A stretch of DNA of 64,000 nucleotides, taken from NCBI GenBank assembly GCA_039111635.1, contig JBCAQO010000004.1, forward strand, positions 868,001 through 932,000, given 5' to 3'. Below are positions 33,830 to 59,942 of this stretch, one piece after another. The notes under the pieces are model-generated. The model saw only the letters and a program-made list of their open reading frames with translations. It made no database searches and was not told where the DNA came from. The position numbers and the translations under genes are program-made. The stretch comes from Heterobasidion occidentale. Lineage: Eukaryota; Basidiomycota; Agaricomycetes; Russulales; Bondarzewiaceae. The first letter of the stretch is position 1; every line of letters starts with the position of its first letter.

Positions 33830-34480
33830 CGTCGCCCTCATCTCCCTCGACCACGCACCTGGCTCCCTCGACCCCGCCGCCTGCATGCCCCCGCCTGGAC
33901 GACGGCCTGGACGACACCGACTCGGCCGCGCCTCACCGACGGCTCCCTCGACGCCTCGTCATCCGGCTCTCGACGATGCGGCCGCCTCGCTGGACCCTGC
34001 CCGCTCCCTCGACCCCGCCGCCTGCACGCCCCGACCACGCCCCCACCTGGACGACGGCCTGGACGACGCCGCCTGGACGCCGCCGCCTGGCGGCTCCCTC
34101 GAAGACGCGGCCGCCTCGCTGAACGCTGCCCGCTCCCACCCCGCCGCCTGCACGCCCCCGCCTGGACGACGCCGACTCGGCCGCGCCTCACCGACGGCTC
34201 CCTCGACGCCTCGTCATCCGGCTCTCGACGATGCGGCCGCCTCGCTGAACGCTGCCCGCTCCCTCCACCCCGCCGCCTGCACGCCCCCGCCTGGACGACG
34301 CCGACTCGGCCGCGCCTCACCGACGGCTCCCTCGACGCCTCGTCGTCCGCCCTCGACGACGCGGCCGCCTCACTAGACCCTGTCGGCTCCTCGTCGACGA
34401 CGCCGCCTGGACGCCCGGCACCCTCTACGACGCGGCCGCCTCACTGGACCCTGCCCGCTCCCTCGACCCCGCCGCCTGCA
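33830..34480. repeat. GC-rich minisatellite with about 129-bp units
   Basis: Degenerate tandem repeat rich in cctggacgac, ccccgccgcctgcacgc and gcggccgcctcgct. The best units recur 129 bases apart (cctggacgac at 34161 and 34290), with diverged units at about 33900 and 34040. The 3n period keeps several frames open on both strands, giving long frames that I regard as artefacts. Confidence 0.8.
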
Positions 34481-34879
34481 CGCTCCGACCATGTCCCCGC
34501 CTGGACCACGGCCTGGACCACGGCGCCTGGACGATGCCGTCTGGACTACGCCGCCTGGACGACGCCGCTCCATCGACGGCGACTCATCTCTCCTCCTCCA
34601 CGACAACGCCCGCCTCCCTCGACGATGACGTCCGCCTCCCTCGACGTGCACGACTCTCCGTCGACGGCGCCGCTCCTCCACAGCAACTCCTGCCTCCTCG
34701 TTGGCGGCTCCCTCGACGCTGGCGGGTCTCGCTGTCGACTCCCTCGGCGCTGCCGCCCACTTCTCTCGTCATCGGCCCTCTCCCGCCGCTCTCGTATCCG
34801 TCGACACTGCCGCCGTTTTCGCGCCGCCCCGTGTACGCCTCCTCGTTGTCGCTGATCGATAGCCTCCTGTACATACATA
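34481..34879. other. GC-rich, partly repetitive spacer
   Basis: Continues the composition of the minisatellite (ctggac and ctccctcgac blocks) but without regular units. No gene seen. Confidence 0.45.
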
Positions 34880-35773: not shown

Positions 35774-37222
35774 ATGTCATCCATATTACCGCAATTTTCC
35801 GGCCAAGATGAGTTCTTGAAAGATCATGTTCATCATGTCCTGGAAGTCCCTGGGGAATTGCACAGCCCAAAGAACATTACCGTGGGTTCAAATAGTCCTA
35901 GGGGCGTTACGAACGCTGCCTTGGACTCGTCCCCTTCCTTGATGCGCACGTTGTTATATCCCCACCGAACATCCAATTTCGAGAACACCGTTGCTCCTCG
36001 AATAATATCCAAGAGTTCCTGGATTAGAGGCAAGGGGTAATCTCGAATGGTGTTCATTAAGGTGGCGATAGTCTTGTACTGGGCGTAGTTTCCCATCCTT
36101 CTTGTTTATGAAGAAGAAGGAGGCTGCGCTACTGGCCGTTGACCGACGTATTGTCCCTCTAGAAAGGTGCTCCTTGACGAATTTTCCTAGCTCGTTGTGT
36201 TTGTCCGGGCTCAAGGCAAATATCCTTGGAGCCTGGGGTTTAAATGACGGTTTGAGATTTATCGCGTGGTCCCAGATAGTATGTTTGGGAAGTCGTTGCG
36301 ATCGCCTCTCGCTGAAAATATCGAGGTAGGAATGGTACTCTGTCGGCACGCGGTCCTTCAGATCGGTCGTGTCAATTTCCTCCTCTAGGTCTTCGTCAAA
36401 GCTAGCGAATCCCGAGGGTTCGGGAGCTACCTTCCTGATGACGGGTTCTTCTCCGCTATCCGTAGCGGAGGAGTCAAACAATATTTGCGCCTTCTCGGCG
36501 ACTTTCCTTGAGGCTTCGCCCTGAGCGTTCTTTTCCAAAGCTCGCCGGCGTTCCTTCTCTTCGGTTTTCAGTTCCTCGAGCCATTCCCGAGCCTTGCGTT
36601 GTCGGGTTTTATGTTCGAGCATTTCCAAAAACCGGGATTTCCATTCCTTCGCTGGAACTTGGCTCCATTGTTCTTTAGTCCAAGTCCACGAAGGTCCTAC
36701 CGGTCCAGAGACAAGGTGCGGTTTCGTCCGCTGAGGAACCTTGTCGCCGCGTAGTTTCGCTAGCCATGCCTTCTTGGTAGGCTCTTCCCTTGCCTTGGTA
36801 AAACCGTATGGTTGTTGGCAGTCTGCGGGGCATCGATCAAAGTGTACCTCACGGCGCCTCCACCCGATGGAGGGGTCGTGGTATTTCAACCAATCTGTTC
36901 CTAGGAGCATGTCGTCTTTCCCTAGATTGGTGATGAACATCTGGACGCGTTCAGTGTGGTATCTCCCCCGCCTGTCCTTGACGGTGAGATTCGCGTCTAA
37001 GCCTCGTCGAATGAGGCCTGCCTTGTTGACGGTGTCATCGACATTGCGAACGCGGATAAGGCGGTTTAACGGGTAGGTTGGAAGATCGTGCTTTCGTACC
37101 CACTTTTCGTTCACCAGAATCCCTTCACAAGCTGAGTCGATGGCGGCTCTGGCTCCAGCGCTTCTTCCTCGAGTTGTTAATCGCACGTCAAGTCGAATAG
37201 GGGTAATGATATGGCTGTTCAT
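35774..37222 (-). pseudogene. Ty3/gypsy pol: protease and partial reverse transcriptase, frameshifted
   Basis: Pol region of a decayed Ty3/gypsy retrotransposon. The retropepsin-like part reads AIDSACEGILVNEKWV, with DSA where an active protease has DSG or DTG, followed by DDMLLGTDWLKYHDP. Reverse transcriptase begins around PRIFALSPDKHNELGKFVKE and [19 protein letters not shown]. The frame shifts near 36050, after which [14 protein letters not shown] and [19 protein letters not shown] are read. It shifts again near 35845 after [10 protein letters not shown]. The catalytic Asp block, RNase H and integrase would lie in or beyond the N gap. The copy is not functional as written. Confidence 0.85.
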
Positions 37223-37299
37223 TGCTCCGATTCGAATACATGACGGGGAATCATACTCGGGTTTTCTTGACCCCCTCTCTTCGGCTGGTGAAGGAGAGG

Positions 37300-38500
37300 T
37301 CAGGAAAAATCCAGCGCTACGTCTGCCAGCATTTGTTTGGCCCTCACTTCCCCTACTTCTCTGAAGAACGCTCGGACGCCATTAATATCACAGACGGGTC
37401 CGTTGCTTCGTTGTCCGTTAGGCGGTACGTAGCGTTCTCCATTGCTCTGGCGTGGTCCTCCGCTCCCTGTGGGAGGGTCCTGACGTTCCACCGAATGACT
37501 AGGTTGTGATACCCAACCGTGGTGGCCATGAGGACTCCCCTCCTCCAATCCTCTATGTAATCCCGCATTGTCTCCCAGCGGGGATTCTTGATCGTCTTCA
37601 TCCTCCAAGCCTGTAACGCGAGTTCTTCTACCTCCTCCACGTATCGGTCTGCGCGTATTTCCTCGAGAAGGGGGAACGCCTCTGCGAGGGGAAGGACATT
37701 TATTCGCCCAGTGTCCCTCTTTTCCACAGTTAAAACAATGGGTGGAGGGCTTGCCGTCATGGGTGCGCTTCTGGCGAGCGGCATCTCTTTTTTGAGAGGC
37801 GTCAATGTCCATGTCAACCACTTGGTTGTTCATTCTGCGAGGTGCGGTGGTGGAGTTGTATCGGAGAGCGGGTTGGTGGTGAAAACGATTCAGGAAATCG
37901 CTTCGGAATGAGGTGGAGTTGGCGAGGATCGCCTTTTGAGCACTTCGGGCTCTCAGCCGTCCGTCTATTTCACAGGCGGTACTGATTCCACTGTGAAAAG
38001 GAGGAGGCAATTCACAATAAATTTCTGTGATCGTGTTCTGTCTCCGTCGAAATTATCGGGGAGTCTAAGCTTGCCCCTTCCAGATGATACTGTCGCAGGG
38101 GGAGCTGTAATGTCTGCCATATTGTTATTTCTTTCGATGGCTCGGGTATTGATCGGTGTTTGAATATCCGAGGATTCGGACTCGGATGTTCCTTCTTCTT
38201 CCTCCGAGGTGTCCGGGATTTCCGGTTCGGGGTTTCTATACTGGGGTGGCTCTACCCAGTCTTCTGCTGTTTCGTCCCAAGCCCACTCAGCTTCTGTTCC
38301 GTCTTCTCTTGTGAAGAAATATCGTCCTTCTCGGTATGAGCAGTTATCAAAGTTTGGAGGGGCTAATCGATTGGTGTCTGAGTAATACCAATGGTTTCCC
38401 CTTTGATGGATAGGACGATTATCTTGTCGGAGTTGGTTGTGGGTTCGTCTAGTGCCTGGTGGATATCCTAGGCCTAGGTCTTGCTCCAGGGGTGTGAAGT
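37300..38500 (-). CDS. Ty3/gypsy gag with zinc knuckle (degenerate)
   Basis: Gag of the same element, between the LTR at 38606-39272 and pol. The upstream part is Asn/Glu-rich with WYYSDTNRLAPPNFDNCSYR, YFFTREDGTEAEWAWDE and LRLPDNFDGDR, read from about 38490. The conserved nucleocapsid knuckle CFNCGKEGHWANKCP (C-x2-C-x4-H-x4-C) lies near 37715-37760. The frame ends at 37300, 78 bases before the first Met codon of pol. The N-terminal part and the knuckle part are in different frames, with stops between them near 38000, so gag is probably also damaged. Confidence 0.7.
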
Positions 38501-38605
38501 AACACTCTCCGGTGGGGGTCTATGCCACCGATGAGGGTTGTGAGAAAGAGTGTGGCAGCAAGCAAGGTGTGGTGCAAGGTAGGGGCAAAAGCGAGTCTAT
38601 TCTAG

Positions 38606-39272
38606 TGTTACGAACTGCTCGTTCGATAACCCAAGAGTAACAGGTTCTTCCCTAGGTCGCACGATGGACTGAGTGGTGGGGATGGTCTCAACTGTATCAG
38701 GCTGTGATACAGGAAGATTTAATGATTTATTCTACCGTAGGAAGACGGTAGGGAACGAAGTGTTCGTATAGGAAGATACGAACGGAACAAGGTTCCACTG
38801 TAGGAAGACAGTGGCAAACGAAGGTGTTCGTGTAGGAAGACACGAACGGAACAAGGAGAATAGACTGAAGATCCTCAGCCTATTCTATGGGCCTTATATA
38901 CTGTATAGGGTATAGGGTAAGAGTCTGTATGCTTCTCCGGGTATCCATCCCAGGAGAGCTGTGGTCGCCGTCTCTCTCAGCCAGCGCCTACTCTTGTACT
39001 TCTCCAGTCGCACCTATCCATCCTAGTGCGACGAGGTGCTTACCCATAAGCCCTAAGCCCATGGCATGTGAATGCCTGTCTTATCAATCCGCTGCATCAT
39101 TGACCCTTCCCATATATCCTATACCGATGTCTTGAGGAACCATCGGTTCAGTCGGACCGTAAGGACATCCGAATACCTTGATGTACGCTCCATGGTGGAG
39201 CCGCCTAGCATGTGATGCTTGAACCATCGGATAGACCAGCCCCGACGGGCTCCGATCGGTCAAGTCATAACA
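38606..39272 (-). repeat. gypsy LTR A (667 bp) with four constant-loop hairpins
   Basis: Begins TGTTACGAAC and ends GTCATAACA; the element on the minus strand uses it as its 5' LTR, next to gag. A near-identical copy in opposite orientation is at 41307-41971. A TATA-like tatataagg (minus strand, near 38892) fits an LTR promoter. Four hairpins with loop TAGGAAGA lie at 38732-38751 (stem CTACCG), 38762-38783 (GTTCGTA), 38795-38814 (CCACTG) and 38826-38847 (GTTCGTG). Confidence 0.85.
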
Positions 39273-41306
39273 GTCAAGGTCTGACAGGTGTCTTGGACGT
39301 CCCACTTTGGATCTCCAGTTTTACAGGGTCGTTTCCGCATTAGGGGACCCTATCTGCGATGCCGGTGATTTAGTGACCGCACTTCACTAAATAACCAAAT
39401 AGGACAAATACATCCGCAACAATGTAAAACTACGAAAGGCTTGGTCCGCAATGACTATAAACTACGGTCGTCCGGAACGACGTTAAAGCTACCATGGACC
39501 CTCGGAGCGTGGTTGTATTCTGGCAGATGGTGGAAGGGAGGGCCTCCACCATTGCAGAACCCTGCCGACTAGGTCAAGGCGCTTCCATATTCCATACGCC
39601 TTACAGTAAAAGAATATGGGGTCGACACGGTTCAATTCCGTGCGAGGGGTTTGGGGACATGGAGCGGGTTGTCAGCCATCCGACAGGACCACGACTACTC
39701 CATGGTGCGCCCATTCTACCCTTGAAGTCAGAAGCAAGGATTCCGCTTCAAGGGCCAGTCAAGAGGCAACTGGGATCGTGCCTCGGGTTTTGACGTCCTC
39801 CATGACGGTAAACTGGGATTGCCCTTTCCTTTACAGGGCCAACGTCCGCGAAGACGTTAAACTACCGCTCCTTTCAGCATAGGAGATGTCGATCGACATC
39901 GTTGTTGAAGCCACGATGTTGATCTAGTCCGCGATGACGATAAACTAGTGTCCCTCGGTTCTAGGGAAGTCATATTGGAGCTGGAATTACCGCGTCCAGC
40001 TGCAATAGTCCGAAATGACCTTAAACTACCCTCACCCCGGAGGATTAAATCTATCGAGGCTCGGGAGGTTCAAGCCAGGCGATAGCGGACGTCCGCAATG
40101 ACTATAAACTAGTTGCCGTCCTTCATGACGATAAACTGAGCAGCCCTTCATTCACAGGGCCATGTGAGTTGTGTCAAAATAGGCTCTCAAGTCTATCTCG
40201 CAACTCTATAAGTTATCCGGTTTGATATAGTATAAACCGTCACCATCCTTCCTCAGTAGGAACCCTGTCAAGACAGCTGTACTTGGTCTAGGGCTCTATG
40301 CGCATCACCGATGAATGTTCCGGCGCGCAGAAAAGGTCTTCTATCTTGTTTACAGGTACTCCTACGTCGGAAGATGGATAGGTCCGCAACGACCTTAGCA
40401 TAAACTAGCAGGGCAGTCCGCAACGACTTATGTATAAACTAGCCTCAGTCCGCAAAGACTTAAGGATAAACTAGAGGACGTCCGCAAAGACGCAAAACTA
40501 CGGACGTCCGGCATGACGTTAAACTACCAGGACATACCTTACGCTGACCCCAAATAATTACCGTCAAGGTGGATACCATGGTGTACTCAAGAAGCCATGG
40601 GGTTCCAAGTCTATTCTTCAAAATCCTTACCTCGTGTTCAATACGCGGAGCGCGGCTACATGCTCGCTCCCATGTGACAAACAAACTCTGGACGAACACC
40701 AATCTCTAACCAGGAGTTAGGGATCTTCAAAGGGGTCTTGCTGGACTCAAGACAAGTCAAGAGCTGTCTACTCTTGATAGGTTGGTGGGCCTAAGCCTTT
40801 GTAAAGCGATCAACCCACACACCTGGAGTCCCCCTCGATACCGGAGATCACGGAGATGAAGATCTATCCTGGAAACACTGAAGCATGGCCTTCGGCATTT
40901 TGGAAGAAGAACGACACACACCCATCCACAGACGAGTTTCTAACTCATCCATAAATCATTCGCATCAGCACTTTCTTTGACCATGAGCAGGGAGTCCTGC
41001 TTTCGAGGGATCGCCTTTTGACTCAAGGGATTGCCTCGCATCAAAACGTAACGGTGAAGGAAGAACACCGGGAAGAAACACGGTATTGTGGCGATACCGC
41101 AGGACTTCAAATCAAACAGCTCAACGGAGATGGAAAACTCCTAGGCGTTGTAAACGACGTAAGTCGGTCTTCGCCCCAGAAAACGAAGTCATACCAGAAG
41201 TCGCATCTGGTCTTATCGGGTCAAGAAACAAATTGCTGATGGAAAGATGATGAGGCTCGCGGAGGCGAGTAGTCCCCTCAGGAGTTGGGACCTAGAAAGG
41301 GGGTAA
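39273..41306. repeat. 2-kb non-coding interval rich in dispersed stem-loops
   Basis: Lies between two oppositely oriented LTRs. I found no protein domain. About 14 short stem-loops of core GTC-hexaloop-GAC followed by an AAACTA-type tail are scattered from 39411 to 40527. Copies start near 39411 (weak), 39444, 39469, 39793, 39841, 39927, 40008, 40090, 40115, 40382, 40415, 40447, 40478 and 40503. A tRNA-like fold occurs at 39564-39642. The purine tract AGAAAGGGGGTAA (41294-41306) abuts LTR B like a polypurine tract, so at least the right end is the 3' end of a plus-oriented retroelement. Confidence 0.75.
39564..39642 (+). other. tRNA-like fold of the long-arm type
   Basis: D-arm-like GCC...GGC (39564-39566 with 39578-39580), an 8-bp stem CCATATTC/GAATATGG (39585-39592 with 39612-39619), and a perfect T-arm CACGG-TTCAATT-CCGTG (39626-39642) appear in order. 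The flanking 7-mers do not form an acceptor stem. This is not a standard tRNA; it may be a decayed tRNA or a tRNA-mimicking part of the element. Confidence 0.35.
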
Positions 41307-41971
41307 TGTTATGACTTGACCGATCGGGGCCCGTCGGGGCTGGTCTATCCGATGGATCAAGCATCACATGCTAGGCGGCTCCATCAGGGAGCGTACATCA
41401 AGGTATTCGGATGTCCTTACGGTCCGACTGAACCGATGGTTCCTCAAGACATCGGTATAGGATATATGGGAAGGGTCAATGATGCAGCGGATTGATAAGA
41501 CAGGCATTCACATGCCATGGGCTTAGGGCTTATGGGTAAGCACCTCGTCGCACTAGGATGGATAGGTGCGACTGGAGAAGTACAAGAGTAGGCGTCGGCT
41601 GAGAGAGACGGCGACCACAGCTCTCCTGGGATGGATACCCGGAGAAGCATACGGACTCTTACCCTATACCCTATACAGTATATAAGGCCCATAGAATAGG
41701 CTGAGGATCTTCAGTCTATTCTCCTTGTTCCATAGCAGTCTTCCTACTGCTATCTTCGTTCACCACTGTCTTCCTACAGTGGAACCTCGTTCTTACACAG
41801 TCTTCCTACTGTGTACCTTCGTTCCCTACCGTCTTCCTACGGTAGAATAAATCATTAAACCTTCCTGTATCACAGCCTGATACAGTTGAGACCATCTCCA
41901 CCACTCAGTCCATCGTGCGACCTAGGGAAGAACCTGTTACTCTTGGGTTATCGAACGAGCAGTTCGTAACA
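41307..41971 (+). repeat. gypsy LTR B (665 bp), inverted relative to LTR A
   Basis: Reads TGTTATGACTTGACC to GTTCGTAACA on the plus strand and is nearly the reverse complement of LTR A. It is preceded by a polypurine-like tract, so it is a 3' LTR. Hairpins with loop TCTTCCTA (reverse complement of TAGGAAGA) lie at 41732-41753 (stem ATAGCAG), 41763-41782 (CCACTG), 41794-41815 (TACACAG) and 41826-41845 (CTACCG). Two of the stems differ completely from LTR A. Its outer end interrupts a coding exon at 41971/41972. Confidence 0.85.
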
Positions 41972-42675
41972 TCGTCTTCATTTCGGGACCCCAGGTTGGA
42001 TAGCCCTGTGTGACGATGGTGACTCCACGGATGCGAGCGCCCAAGATGAACTTATCCAGTTGGTCGAAAGCAAATGACAAAGAGGCCTGAGCCTTAGGAC
42101 GATCACGCCACTAGAAAGCAAGACATGAGATATGAGCAGAAACCTCAACCCTGTAAAGCACTCACTTTCGGCCCAAACCCCTGCTCAATCCTCCAGACAA
42201 GAAAGCTGATGAATCCAAAGCAGTCGAGAAAGGGACGACATAATCGCCAAAAGGTGATATGTGCATCCTCTTCAGTTTTCCAGGGATAGACAATCCCTTC
42301 CTGCAACACACTAACCTCGAGAGGCCGGTTGCCATCCCAGTCAAGAATGTCTCTCAACGCACTGGTACAACGGATGATAAAAGCTCTGATCTGGTTGTGT
42401 GCCTTGACCAATCCTGGGCGAATGGTCCGAGAAGGGAAGCAATAAAAGTCATGACTTGCTTCGGAGGCTGGAAAAATCCATTCCGAAGAGTCACCCCTGA
42501 TGGATCCAGGATCAACTGGGATGAAGGGCCTCCAGGGAAAACGCGAGTCATGAGGAGCTGGATCTACTGCCCAATCGTACGGTTTCAGGCGTCCGGCACG
42601 AGATGGATCAGCGTCGAAGGTCACGTCCGCTGGCGGGGTGAATGCGTTTCTGGAGATGTAAGATGTGGAACTCAT
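41972..42675 (-). pseudogene. hypothetical Agaricomycete gene cut by LTR insertion
   Basis: Exon 1 (42675-42166; a start at 42801 is also open) encodes MSSTSYISRNAFTPPADV, DSRFPWRPFIPVDPGSIRG, SEWIFPASEASHDFYCFPS and LCRPFLDCFGFISFLVWR. Intron 42165-42111 has gtgagt and ctag ends. Exon 2 encodes WRDRPKAQASLSFAFDQLDK and ends ...YPTWGPEMKT exactly where LTR B begins at 41971. Reading on into the LTR adds a few codons and a stop. The 3' remainder of the gene is not recognised elsewhere in the window. The family is lineage-typical with no assigned function. Confidence 0.65.
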
Positions 42676-42884
42676 GGTAGGGCAGGGGCGAAATGCGACA
42701 ACTACCCATGCCGACTGCTGCGACCTCGTGACTTCAACCCAGGGGTATTGGTCTCGGGAGACGGAGGCTTTCATTGTGATGAAAAGATCGAAGCGGAACA
42801 ATTGCTGGAGGAGAGTGTGTCGACGTGAAGGAGACGAAAAGTAGAGGTCTCAACAGATGTGGCACAAGAGCGGCACAAGACTAT

Positions 42885-43270
42885 TTCTGGAGGAAAAACG
42901 CTCTCAGAAACTGCCTAGACAGCCGCGGAAAACACGGTACCGCCCAGTGACGACCGCGGGATGACTGGAAGGAAAGGGAGACTTGAAGATGAAGGAATAA
43001 AGCTTTCAACCGATAAGGACGCCACAAGACAAATTCTGGAGGAAAAACGCTCTCAGAAACTGCCTAGACAGCCGCGGAAAACACGGTACCGCCCAGTGAC
43101 GACCGCGGGATGACTGGAAGGAAAGGGAGACTTGAAGACGAAGGAATAAAGCTTTCAACCGATAAGGACGCCACAAGACAAATTCTGGAGGAAAAACGCT
43201 CTCAGAAACTGCCTAGACAGCCGCAAAACACGATGCTGCCCAACGACGACCGCCTGAGGACTATGAGTGG
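42885..43270 (-). repeat. 149-bp tandem repeat, 2.6 units
   Basis: Units begin with ttctggaggaaaaacgctct at 42885, 43034 and 43183, exactly 149 bases apart. The first two are almost identical; the third diverges after about 50 bases. Each starts with the reverse complement of the stem-loop motif that is dispersed in the next kilobase. Confidence 0.95.
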
Positions 43271-43379
43271 GGCAACTTGAAGTCATGTGAGCTCCGCTCC
43301 CACGGTCAGCGATTTCGGTCCCACGGTCACTCTTTGGCCGAATGTCTGTACGGACGTCGTCATATTACCAGCTCTTAGC

Positions 43380-44335
43380 TCTATCGACAAATTTCTGAGA
43401 GTGACCCTCCTCCGGGAATGGGTTGCTCTCACTCCGCCACCGTCTATCCTCCTGTCGAGCAGCTTTCTGAGAGCGATTTTCCTCCAGAAGTGCGTTGTCA
43501 TTCCCCGACATCAAGCGGCCGTAGTCAGACGGCGTCGCGTGTTTAGCGGCTGTCGGGAGACATTTCTGAGAGCGACCTTCCTCCAGAAATGTGATGTTCC
43601 CAGGCCATCTTCGTATATCCTCTCGGCAATCAGCTTTCTGAGAGCGGCCTTCCTCCAGAAATGCGCTGCCCATAGGCCGTCGTTCTTTGCGTCCCACCCT
43701 GCCATCAAGCGGGTGTAGTCAGATGGCGTTGCGCGGCTGTTGAGACACATATCTTAGAGCGTCTTCCTCCATGAATGTGTTATCCCCATCTCTCCCCCAA
43801 CGAGCAGTTTTCTGAGAGCGACTTTCCTCCAGAAATGTGCTGTTTGCCGGCCACCTCTATCGTCCTGTCGAGCTTTTTGAGAGCGACCTTCCTCCAGAAA
43901 TGTGTTGTCCCCAGAGCCTTTCCATTTATCCTCCCGGCAACCAGCTTTCTGAGAGTGACCTTCCTCCAGATATGCGTTGCCCATAGGCCGAAGCTCTTTC
44001 CATCGCACCTTGCCATCGAGCTACCGCAATCAGACGGCGGCGCGCGGTTCGCGGCTGTCGAGAGACATTTCTGAGAGCGAGGTTCCTCCAGAAATGTGAT
44101 GTTCCCAGGCCATCTTCGTATATCCTCTCGGCAATCAGCTTTCTGAGAGCGAGGTTCCTCCAGAAATGCGTTGCTCGTAGGCCCTCGTCCTTTGCGTCCC
44201 ACCCTGCCATCAAGCGGCCGTAGCCCAATGGCGTCGCGCGGCTTCTGAGAGCGATGTTCCTCCAGAAATGTGTTGTCCCCATCTAACCTCCCAACGAGCA
44301 GCTTTCTGAGAGCGATTTTCCTCCAGAGATCCACT
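43380..44335 (+). repeat. mosaic satellite of a 28-nt stem-loop motif with mixed spacers
   Basis: Twelve copies of a motif TTTCTGAGAGCGA plus a variable dinucleotide plus TTCCTCCAGAAA occur near 43394, 43466, 43562, 43633, 43750 (damaged), 43809, 43868, 43944, 44068, 44139, 44244 and 44302. The ends TTTCTG and CAGAAA pair, and GAG with CTC inside. Spacers of about 30-95 bases belong to a few recurring classes, for example blocks with ccaggccatcttcgtatatc at about 43598 and 44106, or with catcaagcggccgtag. The strand is open in several frames but I see no protein. Confidence 0.85.
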
Positions 44336-45552
44336 ACTTCTAAGCCGTGGTTCTTTGCGACTCCATCAGGCAGCGTGCTGCTTCACCGCGTTGCACATAA
44401 TGATGGAAAATATTCACAACGAGACTGGACCTACGAATTGCGATGCTACTGAGATAATCCTCAGCAACAAGAGGAAGGACTGGGCATCGCGCTGGATCTC
44501 TCATCGTCGCTTCACATTTGCTGAGCGGTGAGCCGCCTTTGCCGCAGCAGAGGACATCTTCTCTGGTTTTTTGCCTCAATCTTCTGGTCGAAGAAGCGTG
44601 GCCTTATGCTTATACCTGGACTCACCTTCTCCAACAAACTCATCAGTCGCCTCGAGGGATTCTATACGACTTTAATAAGGTCCGCATACCGACCAGCTTT
44701 GGGCTACTGAGGCATATCATGCTCATTGGGGCGCAGAACACGGATCTCGCCACGCTCACAGAAGCCACCGCGTACGCTGTTGTCGAGTTTGGTGGATGGA
44801 AGAACGACGCGCTGCCTTGAAAGTGCACATCGATTGTTCGACGTGCGAGAACGTCGTTGGGGATATGTCGGGTACGTGACGTCCTCAACTACCATCCGTT
44901 TGCGCTTGCATTCATTCGCTCACCATACTCGCTCTCCATTCGCATTCGCCTTTCTCCTTAAACCCTTTCACACTTCGCGTTTCGTTTGTGCTCCTCGCAC
45001 CCTCACCACACATCACGACCTACTCTCAATCATGAACCCCAAATACGCTTGGTACCGTCTTAAAGTCTCGACCTCGTTCCACATCGACGCGCTGCGGGGC
45101 AAGATTCGATTTTTCTTCGGACGTCATCCGCCCGATTGTGGGTTCATTCAATCTGTTCGCGCAGAATTGTAGGTTTTTTGTTGTCTTTTCTGCCGCATCC
45201 CTGATCTACAACCACAGCCTTGATATTGATGCCGAGGGTTACATTGGCACTGTTGGAAGGAGGGAAGAGGTAGGGGAGAGAGGTGAAAGAGCAGTGAATT
45301 CGGAGACGTAGGTAGTGGGATGAAAAGACAGGACATTTCATACGGTTTGCAGGTCTGGGGTCAAAATTCACGCGGCAGAGAAGATGTCTCAGAGGGCCCT
45401 ACAGCGCGGTATGTTGTCTTCACTCTCATAAATTGTAAAGAAGCTAATGAGGAGGTAACTTAAACTGGGATGCTATTCTAGTTCATGCAAGTTGTCCAGC
45501 CAGTTTTCCCTGAAGCAATTTGCATTGCCTATCCTGTGAACTCTTCCCTCCA
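44336..45552. other. region without a supported gene
   Basis: A minus-strand frame at 44340-44579 includes VLPLVAEDYLSS, weakly like the C-terminal end of hAT transposases. A 46-residue frame starts at 45032. Neither is strong enough to call. Confidence 0.4.
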
Positions 45553-55496: not shown

Positions 55497-58400
55497 CTAG
55501 ATCTCGGAAATCCCCAAACGCACTACTAGGTCTTGATGGTGATCCCTCGGGATACCTTTTGTAAGGAGGTCAGCCAAATTATCGGCCGAGCGGACGTGCT
55601 CCACTTCCAGTTCCCCCCATTCTACCCGTTCTCGTACAAAATGGTAGCGAATATCGATGTGCTTCGCGCGGGAGTGGTTGATGTACTCCCGCGTCAGGAT
55701 GTTGGCACTCTGGTTATCGCCGAGGAGCAGCATGGGTCCTTGGATCGGGGCCTCCAGCTCCTTGAACAACATCCGGAGCCAGATCGCAGTCTGCGCTGCG
55801 CTGGCTGCCGCAACATACTCGGCTTCCGTCGTAGAGATCGCAACTGATTGTTGTTTCTTTGAGCTCCATGCGATCGGTGCACCGGCCAGTAAGAAAACCC
55901 ATCCCGTTGAGGATCGGCGACCGAGTTCGACACCATGGTTAGCATCAAAGTATCCAACCGGGAAGAGCTTGGCCCCCTTTCCCTTATAAGTGATGCCATG
56001 ATCAGCCGTCCCCTTGAGGTAGCGGCAAAGGTGCTTGAGCGCCTTCCAATGGCGTAGACCGGGGGCATGGGAGAAAGATCCCAGCGTCTGCACAGCATAG
56101 GAGATATCTGGACGTGTTGCCACAGCTAAGTAATTGATGGCACCGAGAATCTCGCGGAACGGCTCCCCGCGTCCTGCTTCACGTTCGGAATCGTCGATAG
56201 GTTCGAAGAGGAGGCGATAGGATTCCCCAGATGGGAGCGGGGTAGGCCCAGGACTGCAGTCAGCCATACCGGCACGCTCGAGCACGCGCAGAAGAAAGCC
56301 GCGTTGCGATATGCGGATCGTCCGGTTTGCTCGATCGCGCTCGACTTTGATCCCTAGGATAAACTCTGGCTCTCCATTTGCGCCCCCCATGTCTTTGATA
56401 CGGTACGCAGCACCCAGTTCCCCCTTAGCCCGTATGGATTCTGCAGGGGATGACGACAGGCCGAGCGTGTCATCAGTATGGGTCAAGGTAATAGTGCGTT
56501 CCCCTCCGGTGGTTTTCGAGCGTGCGCAGTAGTCAGAGAAGAAGCGGGTATAGCCCATACCTCGGTACGCATGGTCCAACTCGAGCCACCAGTTGTTTCC
56601 CCCTTGCTTTGTACCGTAGATAGCCTTATTCAGCCTGCACACCCAGGTCTCCTTGCCAGCTTCCTCGAAGCCTCGTGGTTGGCGCATGTAGATATCAGAG
56701 TCGATCGGCGCGTTTAGGAATGCACTTTCGAAGTCCACCTGCCAGAGTTCCAGGTCAAGGATTGCAGCAAGGGCGAGCGCCGTGCGCACGGTTTCGAGTC
56801 GTACAACGGCGGCAGATGTCCAGAGGAAATTGACACCAAATCGTTGGGAGTACCCTTTACCGACGAGGCGTGCCTTGCGACCAATAACGCGACCGTCGCC
56901 GTCGAACTTCTCCGCAAATACCCACCGATAGTCCATCAACTCAGCTCCTTTCGGCAAGGGGACGACATCCCAGACCTGGTACTCGCGCATTTTGGCGAGT
57001 TCCTTCTCGATGGGTTCCTGCCATAATTCTGCTCGGGACATGGCTTCTTCAAGGGATTTCGGGAGTGGGCCATTGAGGGACTCAGCGACGAGAGCAAAAG
57101 GCGTGTCGGGGAATTCAACATCCACAGGCATGTCACCTTCAGCGGCCAAGTGGGCGACGGTATTGTCGGTGGCCCAGTCATCTCCGCGATCCTGTGCCTG
57201 GGCCGCGCGGACCTGGTACTCGCGCGATTCAAGGACCTTCTGCGAGGGCTTCATGAAGCGGGAGGAGCGTCGCGGCGCGTCAAGAGGGGGTAGTGCTAGA
57301 GTTGGCTGTGGAGGTGTTTGCGGTGTGTCCGGTAAGTCCCGTTTTGGCGGTGTGGGTCCAGGGTTCGGCATTATGGGCGCCTCTTCTGGTTGACTTTCCC
57401 CCGCTGGCGCCTCGTCGTTTTTCTCATCCTCCGCATGCTCGATAGGCTCTCCCGCTCCGCCCTCGTTGTCCAGTGCACCCCGGGACCAGTGGCCATGGCC
57501 TTCATCAAAGGCAACGTCGCGCGAGAGGAAGACTCGGCCTGAGGCGGGCTCGTAAAGCCGGTAAGACGTGCGTCCATGGTACCCAACCAGGATGCATTTA
57601 ATCGTCTTCCCCTGCAGTTTTGACCTTCTCTCGTCAGGTATTTTGGCGTAGGCTATCGATCCGTATGCACGTAGGTGTTCCACGTGTGGGCGGCGTCCGA
57701 AGATCACCTCCCAAGCCGAGGATTTTGGGTGTCGAGAGCTAGGCATGAGGTTGGCGAGATAGGCGGATGTAGCAAACGCTTCCGCCCAAAGCTGTGTGGG
57801 CACCGCACCATCGTACATCATGCATCGCGCATGCTCCGTCCAAGTCCGATTTCCACGTTCCGCCACGCCGTTCTGTGCAGGTGAGTATGGTGTGCTGGTT
57901 TCATGTATGATTCCTTCCCCCTCACACCATTCTTTCCAGATCTCGTTTACAAACTCCGTGCCATTATCGGTGCGGATACGGCGGACGCGCTTCCCGGTCT
58001 GGTTGAAGATCCACGCGGTGAACTGCTTAGCCGCCGCAAGCGTTTCCTCCGCAGTCTTGGAGGCCAGAAAGGAGATATCCCCCCATCCGGAGTATCCGTC
58101 GCGAAGGCCAAACGCGTAGCGTTTGCCGCCAAGTGATGCTACAGCCATGGGTCCCATGAGGTCACCGTGGACTCGTTCGCCGATAGCGGTTTCATGGTCG
58201 ACTACTTCATCGAACGGGCGGCGTGTCTGTCGTCCAGCAAGGCAATCTTCGCAGATGCCGGCAGGAGTCCCAGGCTTGATCTCCATGCCATCGACAACTT
58301 GCGCGAGGCGCTTCGTGGCCTGTAGGCCAACATGGCCAAGTTGTCGGTGCCACATCGGCAGGTCCACGGCTTTGTTCTGTGAGGCCGAGAGCGCAATCAC

Positions 58401-59942
58401 TTCATCGACGGCGCGTGCTGCTGACAGACGGGCCCAAACGATAGATTCGGGAGAGGGCCGATACAGGGTAATGGCATACAGCCCGGAGTTGGAACGGTTA
58501 CTCTCGAAAAGGCGGCGGCCAGTTGAGTCAGTGATGACTGTCCTACCCCCTTCAGTGAGTACTCGGCCCCCTTCGCGATCGAACTGTCGGGCCGAGAGTA
58601 AATTTTGGCCCATATCTGGGGCATGCAGGGCAAGGATGGAGTGGGTAACACGGCGTCCTTCAACGATGGTATCCTTCACCACAATGCCCTTCCCGACAAC
58701 TGTAAAACCCCCAGTCACACTTGCGGCGCGGCCATCTTCAGGCTTCGGTAGCGCCTCGTAGATGACAAAGTCGCGACGATCCGCGAAGTAGTGATTTGTG
58801 GCTCCAGAGTCACTGTATGTCATAAGCTCGCCAGTAGGCTCTCCAGGGGTGTGGGCCAGAAGGGCTATATTCGGCCCAATGGCAAGTACAGCATCGTGTT
58901 TTCCCCCTTTGTCGCTTCCGTTCCCTCGGCCCCGGCGCCGATTCCACCATTCGGGTCGCTCACTCTCGGCAGGACCGCCGTCGGCCCAACACTTCTCGGT
59001 CGCATGGCCGAGCTTTCCGCAATGGGAGCAGCGGGGCTTTTGGGTAGCTATAAGGGCTGTACCCCCTGCGGAGGCTGATGGCGATGCCGAGGCAATCGTT
59101 GCACGACGGAGTGCGCTAGCGCGGATGCGTGCTTCCTGCGAGCATAAGACGGACTCTGCTACCATGGAGTCTTGACAGGTGAGTAGTGTCATGACCACTG
59201 TTCCGAGCACCCCATCGACTGGGAAGGTCATCAGGGCGGTTTGGCAGAACTCCCCTTCAGTGATGCTAGCTCCAGCCCGGTTGGCGGCGTCGCGCAGCAT
59301 ACGAAGGGACTTGAAGTGTTCCGCCACCGAGGTCCCGTCCAGGTACCAGGTCGACGCCAGTCGGAGGCGCATATCTTGCACTACGATAGGGTCACGCAGC
59401 TCAAAGCGATTGCGGAGGGATCTCCATGCGTCGGCGGCTGTCCCAGCTATGTTGAGGCCAGATCCGGGGATGTCAGCTACATTCAGGATGATGTGTGCAC
59501 GCGCCAGGTTGTCGCGCTCGCGCCACTCGCCGTCTGTTGCTGCATATTGGATCGCCCCCGTAGCTGCAGTTGGGAGGTAGATAGGGAAGAATGCGGAGAG
59601 AGCCGTCATCGTCGACTGCAAGGCGTAAGGTGGGGATTGTGTTACCGGTGGCAGACTTGCCGGCGTCGGTATGACCATTGGCGGGGGTGTTTCCTCTTCG
59701 TCAGGCGCTGCCGCCACAGTCGGCGCTGGCGTCACCGTCACTGTTGGAATCGTGGTAATGGGTGACGCCGTCGAGGGGTTAGAGGACGCAGGTAGTATTG
59801 TCCCGAGCAAGTATGGCTCGAGTCCTCTGACCTGGCAGACCGTGTATATCCGCGGCATCCAGTCGGCCCAATTGGCCATAGTAAGGCGTTCCGCTTCGGG
59901 GAGAATATATACCCCGAGTGATGTGGAAGGTGATGCCGACAT
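55497..59942 (-). CDS. copia gag-pol polyprotein, 1481 aa, intact
   Basis: Single uninterrupted frame encoding all proteins for retrotransposition. Approximate residues: gag core 60-290; zinc knuckle CSHCGKLGHATEKC at 302-316; protease with DSGATNHYF near 377; GAG-pre-integrase WHRQLGHVGL near 529 with CEDCLAGRQ; integrase with HGDLMGP (594), RTDNGTEF (659) and NGVAERGNR (694); reverse transcriptase from DYRWVFAEK (1004) through WQVDFESAFLNAP (1069) to HTDDTLGLS (1155), where most copia enzymes have YVDD; RNase H with YFDANHG (1332), STTEAEYV (1369) and GDNQSAN (1405). The fusion of gag and pol in one frame is usual for copia. Length and motif integrity suggest an active or recently active copy. 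Confidence 0.95.
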   Translation of the reverse strand: MSASPSTSLGVYILPEAERLTMANWADWMPRIYTVCQVRGLEPYLLGTILPASSNPSTASPITTIPTVTVTPAPTVAAAPDEEETPPPMVIPTPASLPPVTQSPPYALQSTMTALSAFFPIYLPTAATGAIQYAATDGEWRERDNLARAHIILNVADIPGSGLNIAGTAADAWRSLRNRFELRDPIVVQDMRLRLASTWYLDGTSVAEHFKSLRMLRDAANRAGASITEGEFCQTALMTFPVDGVLGTVVMTLLTCQDSMVAESVLCSQEARIRASALRRATIASASPSASAGGTALIATQKPRCSHCGKLGHATEKCWADGGPAESERPEWWNRRRGRGNGSDKGGKHDAVLAIGPNIALLAHTPGEPTGELMTYSDSGATNHYFADRRDFVIYEALPKPEDGRAASVTGGFTVVGKGIVVKDTIVEGRRVTHSILALHAPDMGQNLLSARQFDREGGRVLTEGGRTVITDSTGRRLFESNRSNSGLYAITLYRPSPESIVWARLSAARAVDEVIALSASQNKAVDLPMWHRQLGHVGLQATKRLAQVVDGMEIKPGTPAGICEDCLAGRQTRRPFDEVVDHETAIGERVHGDLMGPMAVASLGGKRYAFGLRDGYSGWGDISFLASKTAEETLAAAKQFTAWIFNQTGKRVRRIRTDNGTEFVNEIWKEWCEGEGIIHETSTPYSPAQNGVAERGNRTWTEHARCMMYDGAVPTQLWAEAFATSAYLANLMPSSRHPKSSAWEVIFGRRPHVEHLRAYGSIAYAKIPDERRSKLQGKTIKCILVGYHGRTSYRLYEPASGRVFLSRDVAFDEGHGHWSRGALDNEGGAGEPIEHAEDEKNDEAPAGESQPEEAPIMPNPGPTPPKRDLPDTPQTPPQPTLALPPLDAPRRSSRFMKPSQKVLESREYQVRAAQAQDRGDDWATDNTVAHLAAEGDMPVDVEFPDTPFALVAESLNGPLPKSLEEAMSRAELWQEPIEKELAKMREYQVWDVVPLPKGAELMDYRWVFAEKFDGDGRVIGRKARLVGKGYSQRFGVNFLWTSAAVVRLETVRTALALAAILDLELWQVDFESAFLNAPIDSDIYMRQPRGFEEAGKETWVCRLNKAIYGTKQGGNNWWLELDHAYRGMGYTRFFSDYCARSKTTGGERTITLTHTDDTLGLSSSPAESIRAKGELGAAYRIKDMGGANGEPEFILGIKVERDRANRTIRISQRGFLLRVLERAGMADCSPGPTPLPSGESYRLLFEPIDDSEREAGRGEPFREILGAINYLAVATRPDISYAVQTLGSFSHAPGLRHWKALKHLCRYLKGTADHGITYKGKGAKLFPVGYFDANHGVELGRRSSTGWVFLLAGAPIAWSSKKQQSVAISTTEAEYVAAASAAQTAIWLRMLFKELEAPIQGPMLLLGDNQSANILTREYINHSRAKHIDIRYHFVRERVEWGELEVEHVRSADNLADLLTKGIPRDHHQDLVVRLGISEI

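Follow-up and report, generated by a model that had tools for sequence, protein, structure and literature searches.

The present analysis concerns a 64,000-nt stretch of Heterobasidion occidentale DNA (contig JBCAQO010000004.1, positions 868,001 to 932,000; hereafter the window) and, within it, two long terminal repeats (LTRs), LTR A and LTR B, each of which carries an array of four short hairpins with a common loop. Our findings make it rather probable that these arrays are a selected RNA fold in the repeat (R) region of a self-priming, chromodomain-bearing Ty3/gypsy retrotransposon family, and that the fold is re-dealt by reverse transcription. The array lies between the self-primer and the unique 5′ (U5) region, and is placed in R because the RNA is predicted to start near AGTCTATTCT. 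An earlier note, made from the letters of the window, had offered mobile hairpin cassettes, template switching at palindromes or selection for the fold as explanations; an RNA fold and template switching are retained here, but free mobile cassettes are not.

All eight hairpins, four per LTR, are present at the place and with the stems originally reported, stems 1 and 3 being the same in A and B and stems 2 and 4 differing in both arms. Read in LTR sense, A and B share one order, namely TATATAAGG, 34 nt, AGTCTATTCT, the hairpin array, AATAAA, a further hairpin and the LTR end. From the unique 3′ (U3) region toward U5, the stem classes are G-C-A-F in LTR A and E-C-T-F in LTR B. The loop, described at the time as an invariant 8-nt sequence, is indeed common to all eight hairpins, but it had been read on the antisense strand: the loop of the LTR-sense RNA is UCUUCCUA, better regarded as the hexaloop CUUCCU, whose closing pair is almost always U-A. 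Across the family the loop varies, with CTTCCT dominant and CTTCAC, CTTCGA, CTTCGC, CTACAC, CCCCAC and others also found. For the motif TAGGAAGA the window has 11 occurrences where 1.39 would be expected, eight of them within the eight hairpins. A strict scan of the window returns the same eight sites (0.04 expected in base-shuffled windows), as does a covariance model of the family hairpins, which includes these very sequences and at E<=1 detects these 8 in the 64 kb and no others. The folding z of R is -7.2 for LTR B and -7.9 for LTR A.

With respect to the family as a whole, the U3/R junction motif has 682 matches (<=2 mismatches) in the genome, searched over 45 Mb in 159 contigs, and the reversed control has none. 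The main scans covered 94 loci chosen around LTRs. Of 152 listed array rows, 57 were used, rows duplicating loci and identical partners having been left out; one array listing holds 100 of 110 matches, and some degenerate units in the rows are unparsed. The R start AGTCTATTCT is exact in 56 of 57 non-redundant LTRs, and 34 of the 57 are followed by the primer-binding site (PBS) core AGAATAGACT, 29 of them by exactly CTAGAATAGACTCG. In the leader of LTR A, the predicted fold pairs the self-primer with the PBS and encloses the four hairpins (z -5.8); the predicted mean probability of primer-PBS pairing is at least 0.93 in 34/34 leaders. Nineteen LTR pairs could be assigned to one element each by a shared 5-bp target duplication. 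Among the best 150 of 515 candidates, the chromodomain PF00385 lies on the correct strand within 11 of these 19 pairs, approximately 3-4 kb before the 3′ LTR, and among the best 150 of 563 candidates for PF00665 none falls clearly within undisturbed 10-kb LTR pairs. The two LTRs thus belong to a large chromodomain Ty3/gypsy family whose PBS is complementary to the putative 5′ end of its RNA, as in self-priming of the Tf1/sushi type.

The earlier claim that pairing is maintained while the stem letters change is borne out by covariation across the family. Arrays of one to five units are found in 7, 26, 23, 20 and 1, respectively, of the 77 LTRs with a recognisable U3. Among 96 distinct units, collected with a finder that required a standard closing pair, the hexaloop is closed by T-A in 93, T-G in 2 and C-G in 1. 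In this set 90.5% of the cells are paired, against 59.1% when shuffled and at most 50.5% when slid, a value inflated by the pairing-requiring finder. Safer evidence comes from cells changed on both sides, which number 274 compared with 98.5 after shuffling and at most 53 after sliding, and from the motif TCTTCNNA taken without any pairing requirement: of its 184 occurrences in the 77 arrays, 164 are flanked by six out of six neighbouring pairs (G:U counted), 14 by five, 4 by four, 2 by three and none by fewer than three. Similarly, the 32 distinct arm pairs are 89% paired, against 56% in shuffled sets (shuffled maximum 71%). G:U cells outnumber A:C cells in distinct units (27 vs 13, p 0.04), the direction predicted by RNA pairing. 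The loop side of the stem is additionally biased, pair 2 being G-C or A-T in 90 of the 96 units and pair 4 being C-G or G-C in 84. Copies with broken pairing do exist, as one-armed changes after insertion, but across the family pairing is preserved.

When the six core pairs are considered, 14 fully paired stem classes can be distinguished, three of them seen once each. Thirteen form two networks, of eight and five classes, through steps that change one base pair on both sides (14 single steps, compared with 0.4 expected for random hexamers); class TAGCAG stays outside both. Since such single-step networks exist together with G:U intermediates, e.g. CTACTG/CGGTAG between CTACCG and CTACTG, compensated change can generate stems, and the statement that point mutation could not easily do so cannot be upheld for the family. 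Nor do the two differing stems of A and B represent replacement by unrelated sequences, as both are common members of the repertoire in other copies. The exchange between A and B is thus mainly a swap of existing stem classes. In this regard, locus L002 carries the array G-C-T-F, with left spacers as in A and right spacers as in B, an A-like first half being joined to a B-like second half.

The tempo of these changes is informative. Reverse transcription renders both LTRs of one element identical. Of the 19 same-element pairs, 16 have identical arrays, two show a one-base change or a two-base deletion, and one differs by two units. Different elements with U3 divergence below 3%, in contrast, have the array in common in 1/33 pairs (2/34 before same-flank duplicates were removed), and 56 elements carry 44 different arrays. 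A Fisher test of 18/19 vs 2/34 gives a nominal 5e-11, treating non-independent pairs as independent. This stability within elements, set against the differences between them, indicates that arrays are altered while the element replicates and hardly at all once it sits in the chromosome. Hairpin shuffling therefore occurs during retrotransposition, probably through template switching in R. Moreover, the stem differences observed in same-element pairs are one-armed, which disfavours arm correction in the chromosome.

Individual copies bear likely traces of template switching, as the earlier note had suspected; the joined halves of L002 are one. In L117, L118 and L119, U3 is followed by AGTCTATTCT, a spacer and half a hairpin up to TATCTTC, after which AGTCTATTCT comes once more. 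At the U3/R junction the sequence is GATCTTC-AGTCTATTCT, and ATCTTC is also found in the half hairpin; because both sequences share it, the jump can be located there. Strong-stop cDNA that comes down in the loop of a hairpin would leave just such a structure behind. In L057, one whole hairpin is inverted. At the level of the family, distances in U5 and U3 correlate with rho 0.28-0.39, compared with 0.42-0.68 between pieces of U3 and the rest of U3.

These findings allow us to propose a model in which the genome RNA would have the 10-nt self-primer at its start; next would come one to five hairpins, each folding locally and all with a common loop, and after them U5 and the PBS. Selection on the folded RNA would keep the hairpins, as suggested by the persistence of loop and fold while the stem letters vary. 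The bias in the loop and its adjoining pairs suggests that a factor would read the loop. The likeliest candidate is Gag of the element itself, which could gather the RNA or assemble the priming complex; Gag is favoured because it contains a CCHC knuckle and, by analogy, because hairpins with a common loop play such a role elsewhere (excerpts of PMC6281560 and PMC7612645). Units would be gained, lost and swapped as reverse transcriptase changes template in R, notably during minus-strand strong-stop transfer, a change that letters shared by adjacent units in loop and spacer would permit. In its furthest form, which we put forward as a tentative possibility, R would be a combinatorial array of interchangeable hairpins that all present a loop of UCUUC type for Gag, or a partner of it, to read, are re-dealt by minus-strand strong-stop transfer at nearly every round of retrotransposition and outpace the remainder of the LTR in changing their letters.

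Several observations weigh against a selected fold re-dealt in R. The RNA 5′ end at AGTCTATTCT is itself deduced from TATA spacing and the PBS match. Mean pairing probability exceeds 0.9 in 65 of 91 hairpins and does not in the other 26; values drop to 0.01-0.5 in several F/f hairpins and in class A where its loop is CTTCGA, owing to competing folds. The excess of G:U is small, falling to 21 vs 12 (p 0.16) among distinct arm pairs. The broken array of L117-L119 occurs three times, showing that elements with such arrays have transposed and that not every hairpin is always needed. As for the timing, the same-element pair L055 (hF) and L057 (h-A(inverted)-T-F), which share their target duplication, differ by two units. 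Finally, the first hairpin would be expected to go with U3 and the last with U5, but this link is weak: nearest neighbours by U3 and by U5 agree on the first hairpin in 14 and 12 of 49 cases and on the last in 29 and 31 of 49, a comparison made with array codes that are incomplete in a few LTRs.

The main rival to a fold that is read is structural insulation, in which the hairpins keep R off the self-primer and PBS and shorten the path, without any reader, so that any self-complementary unit suffices. The variable number of units (1-5), the free exchange of stems and the primer-PBS pairing predicted in 34/34 leaders irrespective of the array all fit this explanation. Insulation does not, however, require a bias in the loop and adjoining pairs, and leaders with a single hairpin likewise predict good primer-PBS pairing; we regard it as unlikely, albeit worth serious attention. 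A mutational bias without selection, in which one arm of an imperfect palindrome serves as template for the other during reverse transcription or replication, so that the arms stay matched by mechanism, finds support in the copying jumps evident from the inverted hairpin of L057 and the loop-to-R-start junction of L117-L119. Yet it accounts neither for the constant loop length of six nt and the bias of the loop nor for the confinement to R. In addition, the one-armed stem differences in the 19 same-element pairs speak against arm correction in the chromosome, though not during reverse transcription. On balance we consider such a bias improbable.

Far less credible is a role at the DNA level, as cruciforms or transcription-factor sites that immediately follow the promoter. 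The array does sit right behind the TATA box and the predicted start, and in other LTR elements motifs repeated within U3 affect transcription; but here the half-sites vary freely and the spacer-like loop is kept, the opposite of a dyad binding site, and G:U cells exceed A:C cells, if weakly. Least of all do we favour self-mobile hairpin cassettes akin to the double-hairpin elements of fungal mitochondria, even though short hairpins do appear and disappear between copies. The exact 20-nt class-T hairpin has 39 copies in the genome and all 39 lie in R of this one LTR family, 36 in known arrays and three in other copies (L092-L094), where TATA box, R start and U5 are likewise present. The strict scan of 263,258 bases in the 94 loci, a sample biased by its choice around LTRs, gave 240 matches, 238 of them in R; the other two are the inverted unit in R of L057 and a lone match outside the R arrays, in L027. 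The class-T hairpin has no match in IMG/VR. Apart from that lone match, hairpins living outside these LTRs were accordingly not found, either for class T genome-wide or by the strict scan of the LTR-centred loci.

Features of the two window elements, with positions counted from the first letter of the window
Feature	Positions	Strand	Remarks
LTR A, 5′ LTR of leftward element	38606..39272	-	inverted repeat with LTR B, 97-99%; followed by PBS
TATA box TATATAAGG, LTR A	38892..38900	-	34 nt before AGTCTATTCT
AGTCTATTCT, predicted RNA 5′ end and self-primer, LTR A	38857..38866	-	complementary to PBS core
Hairpin class G, LTR A	38826..38847	-	GTTCGTGT(CTTCCT)ACACGAAC
Hairpin class C, LTR A	38795..38814	-	CCACTGT(CTTCCT)ACAGTGG
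Hairpin class A, LTR A	38762..38783	-	GTTCGTAT(CTTCCT)ATACGAAC
Hairpin class F, LTR A	38732..38751	-	CTACCGT(CTTCCT)ACGGTAG
AATAAA, LTR A	38726..38731	-	immediately 3′ of array
PBS CTAGAATAGACTCG, LTR A element	38592..38605	-	its AGAATAGACT predicted to pair with self-primer
Gag fragment with CCHC zinc knuckle, LTR A element	37300..38010	-	PF00098, E 2.2e-6
Protease and start of reverse transcriptase, LTR A element	35954..37222	-	protein similarity
3′ non-coding part, LTR B element	39273..41306	+	polypurine tract GAAAGGGGG at 41295; without long open reading frame
LTR B, 3′ LTR of rightward element	41307..41971	+	5′ part of element not in place
TATA box TATATAAGG, LTR B	41679..41687	+	
AGTCTATTCT, predicted R start, LTR B	41713..41722	+	
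Hairpin class E, LTR B	41732..41753	+	ATAGCAGT(CTTCCT)ACTGCTAT
Hairpin class C, LTR B	41763..41782	+	CCACTGT(CTTCCT)ACAGTGG
Hairpin class T, LTR B	41794..41815	+	TACACAGT(CTTCCT)ACTGTGTA
Hairpin class F, LTR B	41826..41845	+	CTACCGT(CTTCCT)ACGGTAG
AATAAA, LTR B	41846..41851	+	immediately 3′ of array
Separate post-array hairpin, LTR B	41865..41885	+	CTGTATCA(CAGCC)TGATACAG; corresponding LTR A stretch folds alike

LTR A (667 bp) and LTR B (665 bp), which both read TGTTATGACTTGACC...GCAGTTCGTAACA, are oppositely oriented and come from separate elements rather than forming the two ends of one. LTR A is a 5′ LTR, since CTAGAATAGACTCG and a Gag fragment with a CCHC knuckle come next on its own strand, and LTR B is the 3′ LTR of another element, since the polypurine tract GAAAGGGGGTAA precedes it. 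The protease-reverse transcriptase fragment of the window matches reverse-transcriptase proteins, its nearest named relative being a Heterobasidion irregulare protein (50% identity over 97%); its Pfam gag-asp_proteas match is weak and below the cut-off. Two protein searches agree on this species as the source of the nearest named relative, at approximately 50-55% identity, the 55% match being to an unnamed entry. Used as a query, the protease-reverse transcriptase fragment recovered no confirmed relative from IMG/VR or from the prokaryote genome set. The 22 IMG/VR stretches that match a 16-mer taken from the U3/R junction are ascribed to chance because none has a hairpin-model match at E<=0.1. 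Pfam searches of five nearby open reading frames (E<=0.001) and an Rfam search over 36000-44000 (E<=1) gave no match.

Other features were noted in and around these elements. U5 carries GGGAAGA in 51 of the 57 LTRs (near 41925 in LTR B), complementary to the loop sequence UCUUCC, which raises the idea of loop-U5 kissing; K-type loops, however, mismatch GGGAAGA although their U5 carries it, which weighs against that idea. At 41693-41722 (+), the part of U3 immediately upstream of R reads AGAATAGGCT, which is almost the PBS core; the U3/R junction thereby forms an imperfect inverted repeat, in which the self-primer's 3′ copy could be concealed. An additional self-primer copy AGTCTATTCT lies at 40608 (+) within the 3′ non-coding region of the LTR B element, as do thirteen short repeats at 39444-40525 (+), each GTC-six nt-GAC followed by TAAACTA or similar, with stems of only 3-6 pairs. 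Elsewhere in the window, a 1481-codon open reading frame at 55497-59942 (-) matches RVT_2 and integrase and belongs to a Ty1/copia element, and tandem repeat blocks occupy 33844-34729 (units of ~40-120 nt) and 42866-44359 (units of 76-237 nt).

If a selected, re-dealt fold is the right explanation, the arrays would provide a natural record of the template-switch sites of reverse transcriptase in a self-priming element, a clean case of covariation for a functional LTR RNA, and a possible packaging or priming signal of Tf1/sushi-type elements that is testable with natural variants. The hairpin array is also a fast marker of element history. Should the combinatorial reading be true, a working multi-copy signal would be maintained in spite of letters changing faster than in the rest of the LTR.

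Among known systems, retroviruses resemble the present family in having R-region hairpins, such as TAR and poly(A) of human immunodeficiency virus, at both ends of their RNA; those hairpins are non-modular and unshuffled and form no shared-loop array, unlike the R array. Dispersed packaging-signal hairpins of RNA viruses and hepatitis B virus, as described in the available excerpts of PMC6281560, PMC7612645 and PMC7793301, offer a comparison of how the array may work, with several stem-loops, a common loop and variable stems. A loop motif shared by several stem-loops, the mark of such signals, is found in the R array. According to the same excerpts, however, the viral signals have a known protein partner and sites spread genome-wide, whereas the present hairpins are tandem in R, reshuffled and described from sequence evidence. 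The double-hairpin elements of fungal mitochondria, so far as the excerpts of PMC10085805 and PMC7218506 describe them, are likewise short fungal hairpins of variable presence; the R array differs in being nuclear, retrotransposon-borne and made of single tandem hairpins at one LTR position, in arrays of 1-5 units rather than two adjacent hairpins inserting at varied sites.

The closest known counterparts are the self-priming Tf1/sushi chromoviruses (Tf1, Tf2, Tj1, Tosmo, Tcry), which share with the present family the Ty3/gypsy type with chromodomain, a PBS complementary to the predicted RNA 5′ end and the polypurine tract, as far as the excerpts of PMC10085805, PMC7175516 and PMC4600332 go. 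Tf1 primes itself through a PBS complementary to the 5′ end of its own RNA (excerpts of PMC7175516, PMC10085805). The three-duplex "pretzel" RNA around the PBS was not clearly found here: in the one leader considered, that of LTR A, the primer-PBS helix is accompanied by a 4-bp neighbour helix and the third duplex is not seen. The Tf1/sushi excerpts make no mention of a modular array in which one to five shared-loop hairpins separate self-primer from U5, nor did we recognise a description of such an R array in the open-licence literature, as represented by the excerpts at hand. The family is best described as a predicted self-priming chromovirus whose R carries a modular hairpin array.

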